Assembly (NCBI GenBank): GCA_002401365.1
Contig: NVSW01000001.1
Coordinates: 26,800 to 68,447 of the forward strand
DNA: 41,648 bases
Direction of reading: 5' to 3'
Origin: Piscirickettsiaceae bacterium
GTDB taxonomy: Bacteria > Pseudomonadota > Gammaproteobacteria > Methylococcales > Cycloclasticaceae
Below, one piece after another: positions 26,778 through 41,648 of this stretch. The stretch's first letter is position 1; every line of letters starts with the position of its first letter. The notes beneath the pieces were generated by a model. That model did no database searches. It had not been told where the DNA came from and saw only the letters and a list, made by a program, of their open reading frames with translations. A program made the position numbers and the translations under genes.

Positions 26778-26805
26778 TGATTAACGTTGCTAAATTTCGT
26801 ATCAT
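26778..26805 (+). promoter_or_regulatory. Candidate sigma-70 promoter of rpmE
   Basis: TTGATT (26778-26783) and TATCAT (26800-26805) are separated by 16 bases, about 50 bases upstream of the rpmE ATG. Confidence 0.45.
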
Positions 26806-35549: not shown

Positions 35550-37706
35550 ATGGGGAACATAATGAATAATGCAAAAAAGGAAAAACTGATGGATAAGTCA
35601 AATAGGTTTTGCTGGGTTAAAACAAAGCATAACAAAACATTCCTACTTCCATGGATTTTGGCGCTTGTATGTACAGTGTTTGCTCAAGCGGCACTGGCTC
35701 AGGCGGCAAATTTAAAGGAAATTCGGTTTGCTGGATTAGAGGGAAATAAGGTACAGATCGAACTGGCTTTAGATGGCGAGCCGGGACTTCTAAAGAGTTT
35801 TAGTACGGAAAACCCTGCGCGGATAGCCATTGATTTGCCTGGCATTGCTAATAAAGCAGGGAAAAAATCGATCCCTATTAATATTGGTAAAGCAATTAGC
35901 ATTAGAGCGTTACAGGCTGGCGATAGAACTCGAGTTGTATTAAACCTGAGTGAGTCGGTTCCCTATGCAACGAAAATAGAAGGTAATAGTGTTTTTATAA
36001 CGTTAAACAGAACGAAAGCGTTATCAAAAGCGATTTCCTCAGCGAGTACAGCGACGGGGGTAGCAAGCAGTGGTTCACTGGCGGTGAAAAACGTAGATTT
36101 CAGGCGCGGCGAGCAAGGTGAGGGCCGTGTATTAATTAGCTTGAACGCTGCAAATGCGATCGTTGATGTTAAAGAGCAAGGTGGAAAAATAATTGTAGAC
36201 ATTAAAAATGCACAATTACCGGCTAAATTTGCCAATAAATTAGATGTACTGGATTTCGCTACGCCGGTTAAAACGATTGATGTGAAACGTCAAGGAGATA
36301 ATACTCGCTTAACTGTTACGCCAGTTGGCTTGTACGAGTTTTTGTCTTACCAAATGGATGGTTTGTTAACGCTTGAATTTAAGCCACTAACGAGACAAGA
36401 GAAAGCAACCTTGATTGCGGATAAAAATCGCTATACGGGCGAAAAGCTATCGCTTAATTTCCAAAGCATTGAAGTTCGCTCGGTTCTACAGTTATTAGCA
36501 GACTTTACAGATATGAACCTTGTTGCGAGTGACTCAGTGGGTGGTAGTGTAACCCTGCGTTTAAATAACGTACCCTGGGATCAGGCACTGGAGATCATAC
36601 TAAAAAGCAAAGGCTTAGCAAAACGTGTTACTGGCAATGTGTTAATGGTAGGTCCGATTGCTGAGATTGCAGCCCAAGAGAAGCTTGAGCTAGAGTCTAA
36701 AAAACAAGTTAAAGAGTTGTCGCCATTAGTGTCAGAATTTATTGAAATCAGTTATGCAAAAGCTGCGGATATTGCAACGTTGTTGCAGTCGGCAGATAAC
36801 ACTTTGCTTTCAACAAGAGGCGGCGTTACTATTGATGACAGAACGAACACTTTACTAGTCCAAGAAACGGTAGAGAAGCTTGCTGAAATTAGAAAAATCA
36901 TCCAAAGGCTAGATAGGCCTGTGCGCCAGGTAATGATCGAGTCACGCATTGTGATTGCTAATGATGATTTCACTCGAGACTTAGGCGTTAGGTTCGGTTT
37001 GTCTTCGATCGATAGACACGGCGATCATATAACATTAGGTGCTGGCGGTTTGCCAGGTAACGTTTCTCCAGGCGGTTCTGGCCCAATATTTACCACAGTC
37101 GGTGGCACAACAGAAAACCTTTTGGTTGACTTACCAGCAGCGAGTCCCGCAGGAGCGATTCAGTTCTTAGTTGGCAAGATCGGTAGTTCATTGTTACAAC
37201 TAGAGCTATCTGCCTTGCAAACGGAGGCTAAAGGTGAGGTTATCTCAAGCCCAAGAGTTATTACTGCGGATCAATCTGAAGCAATCATTAACCAAGGTGT
37301 GGAAATTCCATTCCAAGAGGCATCCTCATCCGGCGCAACAACTACGAGCTTTAAAGAAGCTGAGCTACGCTTAACCGTTACGCCACAGATCACACCAGAT
37401 GATCGAATTAATATGAAATTGGATATTAGTAAAGATGCACCTGATTTCTCTAACGTGCAGGCTGGAGGTGTGCCGATTAATACTCAAGGCGTACAGACAA
37501 CGGTACTAGTTAATAATGGAGATACGGTTATTCTGGGTGGTATTTATGAGAGATCAAAGGATAGTAGCATTAGAAAAGTACCGTTTTTTGGTGACTTACC
37601 AGGCGTTGGTGTTTTGTTTAGGAAAACCTTCAAGCAAGATAACAGCAGGGAGTTGCTATTTTTTATTACACCTAAAATTTTGAAAGACGGTAATGTCGTT
37701 AACTAG
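35550..37706 (+). CDS. pilQ: Type IV pilus secretin PilQ
   Basis: Outer-membrane secretin channel for the pilus, 718 residues. A signal peptide ends near AQAALAQA (about residue 50). Two AMIN domains (about 53-130 and 170-250) bind peptidoglycan. An STN/N0-type domain (about 305-370, LSLNFQSIEVRSVLQLLADFTDMNLV) and an N1 domain precede the secretin core (about 470-715: RQVMIESRIVIANDDFTRDLGVRFG, EVISSPRVITADQSEAII, VPFFGDLPGVGVLFRK). The start used is ATG 35550; ATG 35562 or 35589 is possible. A terminator follows, separating it from aroKB. Confidence 0.96.
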   Translation: MGNIMNNAKKEKLMDKSNRFCWVKTKHNKTFLLPWILALVCTVFAQAALAQAANLKEIRFAGLEGNKVQIELALDGEPGLLKSFSTENPARIAIDLPGIANKAGKKSIPINIGKAISIRALQAGDRTRVVLNLSESVPYATKIEGNSVFITLNRTKALSKAISSASTATGVASSGSLAVKNVDFRRGEQGEGRVLISLNAANAIVDVKEQGGKIIVDIKNAQLPAKFANKLDVLDFATPVKTIDVKRQGDNTRLTVTPVGLYEFLSYQMDGLLTLEFKPLTRQEKATLIADKNRYTGEKLSLNFQSIEVRSVLQLLADFTDMNLVASDSVGGSVTLRLNNVPWDQALEIILKSKGLAKRVTGNVLMVGPIAEIAAQEKLELESKKQVKELSPLVSEFIEISYAKAADIATLLQSADNTLLSTRGGVTIDDRTNTLLVQETVEKLAEIRKIIQRLDRPVRQVMIESRIVIANDDFTRDLGVRFGLSSIDRHGDHITLGAGGLPGNVSPGGSGPIFTTVGGTTENLLVDLPAASPAGAIQFLVGKIGSSLLQLELSALQTEAKGEVISSPRVITADQSEAIINQGVEIPFQEASSSGATTTSFKEAELRLTVTPQITPDDRINMKLDISKDAPDFSNVQAGGVPINTQGVQTTVLVNNGDTVILGGIYERSKDSSIRKVPFFGDLPGVGVLFRKTFKQDNSRELLFFITPKILKDGNVVN

Positions 37707-37726
37707 CTAGAGTCGTTTTATTCAAA

Positions 37727-37758
37727 ATAAAAGGCGAGGATTTATCCTCGCCTTTTTT
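37727..37758 (+). terminator. Rho-independent terminator after pilQ
   Basis: GGCGAGGA / TCCTCGCC perfect 8-base stem, TTTA loop, then a T6 tract, 26 bases after the pilQ stop. Confidence 0.92.
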
Positions 37759-37792
37759 ATTAAAAAGAAATAAACGAAGTGCAATATCAGCA

Positions 37793-37801
37793 TGGTATAG
37801 T
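37793..37801 (+). promoter_or_regulatory. Candidate extended -10 promoter for aroK
   Basis: TGGTATAGT is an extended -10 (TGn plus TATAGT), 22 bases upstream of the aroK ATG and just after the pilQ terminator. There is no clear -35 box. Confidence 0.4.
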
Positions 37802-37823
37802 TTTATTAAAAATATGTGCTTAA

Positions 37824-38345
37824 ATGGAACTGAAAACGAATATTTATCTAATTGGCCCAATGGCGGCAGGGAAGTCCACTATCGGCAAGGTATTGGCACG
37901 AAAGTTAGGCGTGTCGTTTTTTGATATAGATCAAGAAATTATTGAGTGTACAGGAGTAGAAATAGCACTAATTTTTGAATTAGAAGGAGAAAGTGGTTTT
38001 CGAAAAAGAGAAACCGATAAAATCAAAAGGTTGTCTCAGCTAGATAATGCCGTTATAGCAACGGGTGGCGGGGCGGTATTGAGTAAAGAGAATCAAGTGA
38101 TATTAAAAAATTCGGGTAAAATCATTTACTTACAATGTTCAGTAAATCAACAGTTAAGCCGGACCCGTTTTGATACCAAACGTCCATTATTGCAAACAGA
38201 AAACCCGAGAGAGAGATTAGAACAAATGATGATTGAGCGTGCGCCAATATACGAGAGTTTGGCGGATATAACAGTAAGTACCGAAAGGATAAATAGCAAA
38301 CGGGTTATAAACACAATCGTTGAGCAATTAAAACGACAGCCATGA
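37824..38345 (+). CDS. aroK: Shikimate kinase
   Basis: Cytosolic P-loop kinase phosphorylating shikimate in aromatic amino acid synthesis. It has 173 residues (E. coli AroK 173). Walker A is GPMAAGKST. The shikimate-binding [13 protein letters not shown] and FRKRETD segments and the TGGGAVL motif are present. The lid region is RFDTKRPLL. It overlaps aroB by four bases (ATGA). Confidence 0.97.
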
Positions 38346-39424
38346 CGCAACTAATTGTAGATTTAGGGGATAGAAGCTACCCAATTTTTATTACCAAGGG
38401 CCTGCTTGGTGATCAAGGAATGTTTGATGAATATCTATCTGGCAAGCACGTACTTATCGTGACGAATGAAACAATTGCGCCGTTATATCTTAAGCCCCTT
38501 AAGGAGATGTTTGCGGCAGACATCAAGGTGTCGACGTGCATATTGCCAGACGGGGAGCAGTATAAAACATTAGAGTATTTGAATAAAATATTTGACTCAT
38601 TATTGGAGAACCGTTGTAACCGCCAAGTCACTTTGATGGCCTTGGGTGGTGGCGTAATTGGCGATATGACGGGCTTTGCTGCGGCAAGTTACCAACGTGG
38701 CGTTAGTTTTATTCAGGTTCCAACAACATTGTTGTCGCAGGTTGATTCATCGGTTGGCGGCAAAACAGGGGTTAACCACTCACTAGGTAAAAATATGATA
38801 GGTGCTTTTTATCAGCCAACGTGTGTCCTGGTTGATATATCTACACTATCAACACTACCCGATAAAGAACTAAGTGCAGGATTAGCTGAAGTTATTAAAT
38901 ACGGGGCTATCTGTGATGCTGAATTCTTTCGCTGGTTAGAAAAAAACATGGATGCACTAAGGCGGCGTGATCCCGAAGCACTTAGCTATGCAATTCAAAA
39001 ATCTTGCGAAAAGAAAGCAGAGGTCGTTGCAAAAGATGAGCGAGAATCAGGGATAAGGGCAACCTTGAACTTTGGCCATACATTTGGGCACGCTATAGAG
39101 GCGCATATGGGCTATGGAAACTGGCTACATGGTGAGGCAGTGTCAGTTGGTATGTGTATAGCCGCTGATTTGTCATGTGGTTTGGGCTGGTTGCCTGAAG
39201 GCGACAGCATGCGCCTTAAACTGCTTTGTGAGAAGGCAGGATTGCCGGTCCATAGCCCAAATAATATGGCGTTCGACGATTACTTAAATTATATGCGGTC
39301 AGATAAAAAAAACATCACAGATAAAATTCGATTTGTGTTGTTAAAAAGTATTGGAGAAGCCGTTTTATTTGAAGGCGTGGATGAAAGGTTGTTGAAGATG
39401 GCGATATTAAACAGGGCATGTTAA
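38342..39424 (+). CDS. aroB: 3-dehydroquinate synthase
   Basis: NAD- and divalent-metal-dependent enzyme making 3-dehydroquinate from DAHP. It has 360 residues (E. coli 362). Segments include [80 protein letters not shown] and the metal-binding [17 protein letters not shown] and [11 protein letters not shown]. It follows aroK with a coupled ATGA overlap and precedes the damX-like gene by 4 bases. Confidence 0.98.
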
Positions 39425-39428
39425 TGAC

Positions 39429-40796
39429 ATGACGTTTAACAAAAACAGCCAATCTCAGGGTGTATTTTTTACCCCAGAGCGCCAACAACGGTTAGATTTG
39501 ATTACCCATTTAATCCCTAATAGTCGCCAGCCTATTTTGCTCCGGGGCCCTGCAGAGTCGGGCAAGTCTTTTTTCCTACGGGAGTTTAAAAAACAAGCAC
39601 CTAACAATTGGCTAATCTGTATGCTCGAAGCCGATGAGATGACTCTTTCCCCTACGGATGCGTTTGAATCTAGCTTTGATCAACTAGAGAATAGTGATAA
39701 GCCAATTAGATCTCGCTTGACAGCGTGGTCTCGAATTGAAAAAATAGTTGTGGTATTAGTAGAAGACATGCATCTTCTAGACGCTACGGGTATTGATGAG
39801 TTGTTCCGTTTGAGTGAAGAGCATGGCTGCTTACGGCTACTGATGACATCATCAGAGAATTTAGGGGAAGAGGTTGAGGGGCATTGTCAGTTAATTGATC
39901 TAGAACCGTTTAGTCAAAAACAAACCGCTGACTATGCAAAAGCGAGAATAAACGCCAAAGGTATCGATTTTGTTAATTTAGCCGGCATAGATGATGTTGT
40001 GCTTTTTATTGAAACGGGTGGTCTGCCGGGGCGTATTAATGACGTTTTGCAGCAAATGCAAGAGAGCCCCTTAAAAGCTAAAGCAGTTAAAAAAGGGTCA
40101 AATACCTTGTTTATATTATCTGCGGTGGTCATTTCTTTGTTGATAGCAGTATTGTTAACGCAAGGGTTCTGGTTTGATGAGGTTGTGGAGCCAGAGTCAA
40201 CGCTAGCTTTGCCTAAAGAAGTGAAAAAGATACCTTCTTTGGCTTTAAACAGAGACGTTTTAATTAAAAAACCAGCACCAGTGCAAATACCAATCGAAAA
40301 ATTTGATAAATCTCCCTTGCAAGAAAAAGAGGTTAAGGCGGATATTAGGGTGGAGCCAGACCAAGTTTCCGAGGAAGAAATGGCTCTAAAAGAACCCTTA
40401 ATTGAGATTATAAAAGCGAAAAAAAACAAGGTGCTAGAAAAAGTGCCAACTGTAAAGAAGGTGATTCAAACAAAGGTTGTTAGAAATGAACCGTTGGGGT
40501 TAAATCATAACTGGTTAAATGCACAGTCAACGTCAAAATTCACCTTACAGTTATTGGGTGTGTCTCAGGAATCGTCAGCCAAAAAATATTTGGCATCTAA
40601 AAAAGGCGTGCAAGGCTTACATTACTTTAGAAATAAAAAAAATGACGGCGCTTGGTTCACTGTTATTTATGGTGTCTACACGGATAAGGCGTCGGCGGAA
40701 GCGGCTGCAAAAATCCTCCCCAAAGAGCTAAAAGGCGTTAGCCCATGGTTGAGATCAATACAAGATGTGCAGTCAGATATGTATAACATTAAGTAG
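39429..40796 (+). CDS. damX: DamX-like ATPase/SPOR-domain division protein
   Basis: A 455-residue protein in the position of damX after aroKB. It has an N-terminal ExeA/AAA-type ATPase region with Walker A GPAESGKS and a VVLVEDMHLLD Walker B. One membrane helix follows (about residues 228-248, LFILSAVVISLLIAVLL), then a Lys/Glu/Pro-rich linker, then a C-terminal SPOR domain (about 370-450: FTLQLLGVSQESSAKKYLASK, WFTVIYGVYTDKASAEAAAKIL). SPOR domains bind denuded septal glycan, so it should be a periplasm-facing cell-division protein. E. coli DamX is similar in layout (428 residues). The start ATG at 39429 is near 4-base spacing from aroB. Confidence 0.88.
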   Translation: MTFNKNSQSQGVFFTPERQQRLDLITHLIPNSRQPILLRGPAESGKSFFLREFKKQAPNNWLICMLEADEMTLSPTDAFESSFDQLENSDKPIRSRLTAWSRIEKIVVVLVEDMHLLDATGIDELFRLSEEHGCLRLLMTSSENLGEEVEGHCQLIDLEPFSQKQTADYAKARINAKGIDFVNLAGIDDVVLFIETGGLPGRINDVLQQMQESPLKAKAVKKGSNTLFILSAVVISLLIAVLLTQGFWFDEVVEPESTLALPKEVKKIPSLALNRDVLIKKPAPVQIPIEKFDKSPLQEKEVKADIRVEPDQVSEEEMALKEPLIEIIKAKKNKVLEKVPTVKKVIQTKVVRNEPLGLNHNWLNAQSTSKFTLQLLGVSQESSAKKYLASKKGVQGLHYFRNKKNDGAWFTVIYGVYTDKASAEAAAKILPKELKGVSPWLRSIQDVQSDMYNIK

Positions 40797-40886: not shown

Positions 40887-40916
40887 TTGAAAATCAGCGT
40901 GCTTTTCGGCTATAAT
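40887..40916 (+). promoter_or_regulatory. Sigma-70-type promoter of gltB
   Basis: TTGAAA (40887-40892) and a perfect TATAAT (40911-40916) are separated by 18 bases, about 58 bases upstream of the gltB start. The rest of the 178-base gap shows only a short GGTCA/TGACC dyad near 40825-40842. Confidence 0.7.
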
Positions 40917-40974
40917 AACCGGCCGGCCAGAGCACGGTCGGACTTCTTTTAGCAAATAATAAAAGGTTATCTGA

Positions 40975-41482
40975 GTGGAAAAAACCTCCATCCAACAAGC
41001 AGGGTTATATGATCCTGCGTTTGAAAAAGACAGCTGTGGCTTCGGGTTAATCGCGCATATTGATGATAAGCCTAGCCATTGGCTGGTTAAAACGTCCGTA
41101 GACTCATTAGCTCGTCTAACGCATCGTGGTGCAATAGCTGCAGATGGGAAAACGGGTGATGGTTGTGGCTTGTTATTAAAAACACCGGTAACTTTTTTTC
41201 GTGCAAAAGCTGCGGAATTAGGTGTTGAGCTGGGTGATTTATTTGCTGTGGGCATGGTGTTTCTTAACAGTGATAAGCAACCGGCACAGCAAGCGAAATT
41301 AGTCTTACAAGAAGAGGTAGAAAAAGAAGGTTTGACTGTTGTGGCATGGCGGGTTGTGCCTACAGATACGAGCGCTTGTGGACGCCAAGCATTGGCTACA
41401 TTGCCGGCTATTGAGCAAATATTTGTCAATGCCGCAGAAGGGATGGATAGAGCCACCCTGGATCGCCATTTGTATATCGCAA
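40975..41482 (+). CDS. gltB: Glutamate synthase large subunit, N-terminal fragment
   Basis: Start of the glutamine-amidotransferase domain of GOGAT, which makes glutamate from glutamine and 2-oxoglutarate. GTG 40975 is preceded by AAGG with 9-base spacing and a TTGAAA/TATAAT promoter. LYDPAFEKDSCGFGLIAHI contains the nucleophile Cys (near residue 21, exposed after propeptide removal). LARLTHRGAIAADGKTGDGCGLL, GDLFAVGMVFLNSD and VVAWRVVPTDTSACG are family-typical. The match to GltB is lost after HLYIARR (about 41485). The remaining track residues up to 41544 are a frame-shifted translation of other sequence and should not be treated as part of the protein. Confidence 0.93.
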
Positions 41483-41648
41483 GAAGGCGTGCTGAAAAGC
41501 GACCTCTTTGGCGAAGACCTCTCGAAGCTCTTCCCCGTGGCTGAGCCCGACTGTAGCGACTCCGGAACCTTCGACAACGCTCTTGAGTTCTTGCTCATGA
41601 CGGGCCGCAGTCTGCAAGAGTCGGTCATGATGATGGTTCCCGAGGCAT
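41483..41648 (+). CDS. Foreign, GC-rich GltB fragment joined out of frame (likely chimera)
   Basis: Read in the frame starting at 41483, the tail encodes EGVLKSDLFGEDLSKLFPV and DSGTFDNALEFLLMTGRSL then MMMVPEA. This is the GltB region downstream of the HNGEIN segment, normally about 100 residues further along than where the native frame stops. The frame is +1 relative to the preceding gltB, and GC rises to about 58% (70 of 120 bases in 41521-41640), against about 43% just upstream. Codons such as CTC, TTC, CCC and GAG dominate, unlike the host genes. It is most easily explained as a misjoined fragment from another organism. Confidence 0.75.

Follow-up and report, generated by a model that had tools for sequence, protein, structure and literature searches.

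Joining the DNA of two organisms into one contig, so that its two sides differ in phylogenetic profile, is a described error of assemblers, albeit a rare one (PMC7111523). The window analysed here, a stretch of 41,648 nucleotides, corresponds to positions 26800–68447 of contig C2, one of the 117 contigs of a 78.3%-complete draft genome (1.54 Mb), and its last base is the last base of that contig. Within the final 180 bases of C2, and confined to them, is a joint between two pieces of gltB, the gene for the glutamate synthase large subunit. We consider it highly probable that metagenome assembly produced this contig end as a chimera.

The native 5′ part of gltB lies at 40975–41499 on the forward strand and comprises the first 175 codons, which encode the start of the glutaminase (GATase_2) domain. 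It matches positions 1–157 of the Pfam GATase_2 profile PF00310 (E = 8.8e-48) and positions 2–169 of NCBIfam NF008730, and it is 75–84% identical to GltB proteins of the same genus, which are 1491–1504 residues long. Upstream on the same strand, pilQ, aroK and aroB (35550–39424; Secretin, SKI and DHQ_synthase domains) form a native syntenic block leading to gltB, in an order identical to that of the same-genus loci L107–L110. The native neighbour upstream of gltB is a gene for a damX-like SPOR-domain protein (39429–40796, forward strand; PF05036 SPOR), which holds the same place in four same-genus genomes. The genes around gltB point to a gammaproteobacterial host. With same-genus gltB as the reference, the native resemblance stretches to about 41499–41501. 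The original prediction had ended the native match at HLYIARR, but it continues through RAEK (41499), as it does in the same-genus relatives. The native frame hits a stop at 41542–41544 after 189 codons in total, the last 14 residues being aberrant, and the contig end follows, where a functional gltB would be one open frame of about 1490–1500 codons.

The remaining sequence, from 41483 to the contig end at 41648 on the forward strand, carries 55 codons from a later part of gltB in the +1 frame and encodes EGVLKSDLFGEDLSKLFPVAEPDCSDSGTFDNALEFLLMTGRSLQESVMMMVPEA. This tail matches positions 247–303 of PF00310 (E = 6.8e-16), in a frame one base off that of the native part. Its first residue corresponds to residue 264 of a host-genus GltB (L107), the native part ends at residues 170–175, and 88–94 GltB residues are skipped across the joint. 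A skip had been predicted, and is indeed present, although the figure of about 100 residues has to be lowered accordingly. The composition changes at the same place. The GC content of the tail is 57.8%, compared with 46.3% for the native gltB part and 42.1% for the window, and no 147-base stretch within positions 1–41480 reaches that value, the highest being 57.1%. GC at third codon positions (GC3) is 76.4% in the tail against 36.6% in the native part. The predicted jump to about 58% GC, the altered codon choice and the passage into a later part of GltB in the +1 frame are all borne out by these values, and the switch in composition, frame and protein position near the joint is real. We rejected a mere frameshift error within the native gltB, as the tail belongs to another GltB subfamily and 88–94 residues are missing between the two parts.

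A protein search of GTDB genomes with the tail returned 72 loci. The top relatives, at 84–87% amino acid identity, belong to Planctomycetota (Botrimarina, Bythopirellula and other Pirellulales), together with some gammaproteobacterial metagenome-assembled genomes, so that separate searches of the two parts, as had been proposed, lead to the host genus for one and to planctomycete and some gammaproteobacterial GltB for the other. At the DNA level, the tail is 84% identical to Botrimarina colliarenosi over 163 bases, and the best match, 85% over 151 bases, comes from another genome of the same planctomycete family, of which 37 of 44 genomes contain a DNA match. DNA matches in gammaproteobacteria, with 77% identity over 146 bases and 82% identity over 121 bases, fall behind these in both strength and length. 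In the host genus itself, the corresponding segment is only about 25–32% identical, in short alignments. Neither the GTDB protein search nor the DNA search of the 44 planctomycete-family genomes returned the exact source species. Since its GC, its GC3 and its nearest relatives are all foreign and the host-genus counterpart is so poorly identical, the tail is foreign DNA of a different GltB subfamily, most likely from a Pirellulales planctomycete. By base composition, and by host-genus as against Pirellulales relatives, the two sides of the joint come from different organisms.

Some other gammaproteobacteria do possess GltB of the tail's subfamily, and on that account the tail could be native, belonging to another, divergent copy of gltB in the host. 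Against this, searches of the whole genome (78% complete) gave no exact or second copy of the tail and no other GATase_2 region, the GC and GC3 of the tail lie beyond the range of the window, its best DNA matches are planctomycetes, and frame and register are both broken at the joint. This reading was rejected on the own-genome searches, and we give it the lowest probability of any considered here, close to negligible. Separately, protein comparison shows that clearly different GltB types exist in the host's order. The host genus and family f7 share one type, 65–84% identical to the native part of the window, while GltB proteins of other families in the order are only about 30–43% identical to it; the tail is nearer to the GltB of those other families (44–52%) than to that of the host genus.

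When the remainder of a relative's GltB was used to search the same genome, it located the true continuation of the native gene on another contig. Contig C28 opens, at its base 1, with gltB from residue ~1252 to the end, 89% identical to that of G012; gltD follows directly (93% identity). The intervening ~1076 codons, between codon 175 and codon ~1252, are on no contig of the genome. Because C28 begins with the native 3′ end and gltD, the gene was evidently split by an assembly gap, and the native gltB is most likely an ordinary one, interrupted by a gap of about 3.2 kb with a foreign scrap on its left edge. Elsewhere, at G000:C63:7910–8635 (L118), there is a sequence distantly related (28% identity) to the later GltB part; it is probably a separate glutamate-synthase-domain protein rather than the missing middle of gltB. 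Among same-genus genomes with a match, 15 of 15 carry gltB as an intact open frame of 1491–1504 residues, and in the four that were checked for gene order, two of them single-contig genomes, it is one open frame in the order pilQ–aroK–aroB–damX–gltB–gltD. The comparison with complete relatives that had been suggested thus finds an intact gene in the same neighbourhood.

These data bear on whether the fusion could be real, with the 5′ end of the host gltB joined out of frame to a piece of planctomycete gltB by illegitimate recombination or gene transfer. A joint with microhomology is compatible with illegitimate recombination, but the native 3′ end and gltD are intact at the start of C28, the relatives all keep an intact gltB at the same place, the fusion is out of frame with the native frame ending after 14 aberrant residues, and the foreign DNA stops where the contig stops. 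Real recombination therefore seems very unlikely as the origin of the fusion, and less probable still is the particular form in which inter-phylum illegitimate recombination at the ~20-base match gave rise to an out-of-frame host–planctomycete fusion in part of the population. The original prediction had already placed recombination between gltB homologues behind an assembly or library chimera; we found nothing to support recombination, and its preferred reading is supported by a contig that ends about 147 bases past the joint, a Pirellulales-like tail, the native 3′ part of gltB with gltD on C28, and intact genes in all same-genus genomes with a match.

The joint itself was compared codon by codon with 15 same-genus gltB genes and about 70 relatives of the tail. 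Same-genus genes mostly read YIARRRAEKR here, and the window agrees with them up to the lysine codon AAG at 41497–41499 and then the CG of the next arginine codon at 41500–41501. Among the relatives of the tail the pattern is ..N-WM-AR|EGV-KSDLF, with GAA/CAA-GGC-GTG codons that begin at the base equivalent to 41483; in one such relative (L091), 21 bases are identical to those of the window at 41489–41509. The stretch AGAAGGCGTGCTGAAAAGCG (41482–41501, forward strand), read as ..ARRRAEKR in the native frame and as ..REGVLKS in that of the tail, is plausible in both parents, in different reading frames and at non-homologous positions. Its shared length is about 17–20 bases (41482/41483 to 41499/41501), an estimate from relatives of both parents rather than from the exact parents, and the crossover point cannot be fixed within it; it exceeds the 8-base AGAAGGCG-like stretch that had been described as the only shared sequence. 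An overlap of 17–20 bases is the size of the smallest k-mers in common short-read assemblers. When viral contigs were scanned for a 17-base core of the joint, it turned up at six places. We also rejected a repeat at the joint, as 40900–41648 yielded no direct or inverted repeats.

By calculation, the chance of a shared 20-mer between two unrelated 4.5-kb genes is about 4e-5, while matches of this kind are common when a whole community is compared. A pairing of gltB with gltB is so unlikely by random overlap that homology-guided recruitment has to be assumed; chance collision of k-mers could happen, though it is unlikely without such recruitment. That both pieces are gltB is thus probably no accident. 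Under assembly error, the host gltB would have broken after about codon 175, and the assembler, unable to cross the gap, would have extended the broken end by a short foreign path through the ~20-base overlap, appending some 147–166 bases of another organism's gltB, most likely that of one of the Pirellulales planctomycetes. Conserved stretches may first have drawn reads of the foreign gltB, or the mates of such reads, to the end of the host gltB during local assembly or gap extension, before they were joined to it at the short non-homologous overlap.

Alternatively, amplification or ligation between templates at a ~20-base match during library preparation may have made a chimeric molecule that, once sequenced, lengthened the contig by roughly a single read. 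The tail does end only 147–166 bases past the joint, close to the length of one read, and a short shared stretch suits template switching; however, such chemistry would not favour the joining of two gltB genes at non-homologous positions, and a lone chimeric read is normally removed for its low coverage. We regard this wet-lab origin as rather unlikely and as a second choice behind an assembler misjoin, and we infer that the join was the work of the assembler and not of the library chemistry. The artefact reading is favoured because the joint lies at a contig end, carries a foreign tail, breaks both frame and register, and shows a short overlap, with the native 3′ part on C28 and the gene intact in relatives. 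On the sequence evidence, the end of C2 is artefactual rather than the product of a biological rearrangement, and it holds no biological novelty.

A sample of 72 contig ends from the genome included one other with a comparable GC jump, a gene of about 900 bases for a TrbI conjugation protein rather than a scrap; chimeric tails recognisable by their GC are therefore uncommon in this genome. That gene lies at the start of contig C3 (L123:1–938), is GC-rich (61% in its first 150 bases) and TrbI/VirB10-like (PF03743, E = 1.6e-59), and probably represents a mobile element or a misbinned contig.

The significance of the C2 end is mainly one of data quality. Its last ~166 bases should not count as host sequence, where they would falsely suggest a truncated gltB and a gene transfer. 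The case also illustrates that members of one gene family can be joined across phyla at chimeric ends, and gene-level screens for transfer could mistake such ends for biology.

The joint resembles the chimeric contigs described from short-read metagenomes (PMC7111523) in that profile and composition differ across it, the two sides share a short identical overlap, and it sits at a contig end next to an assembly gap. It differs in that both sides belong to the same gene family, the join probably having been guided by homologous read recruitment rather than arising at random. Measured against the gltB family (NF008730/PF00310), the native part matches from its first residues and occupies the usual damX–gltB–gltD place, and the tail matches PF00310 as well, further along the profile; unlike members of that family, what stands here is a pair of partial genes, each from a different organism, whose join keeps neither frame nor register.
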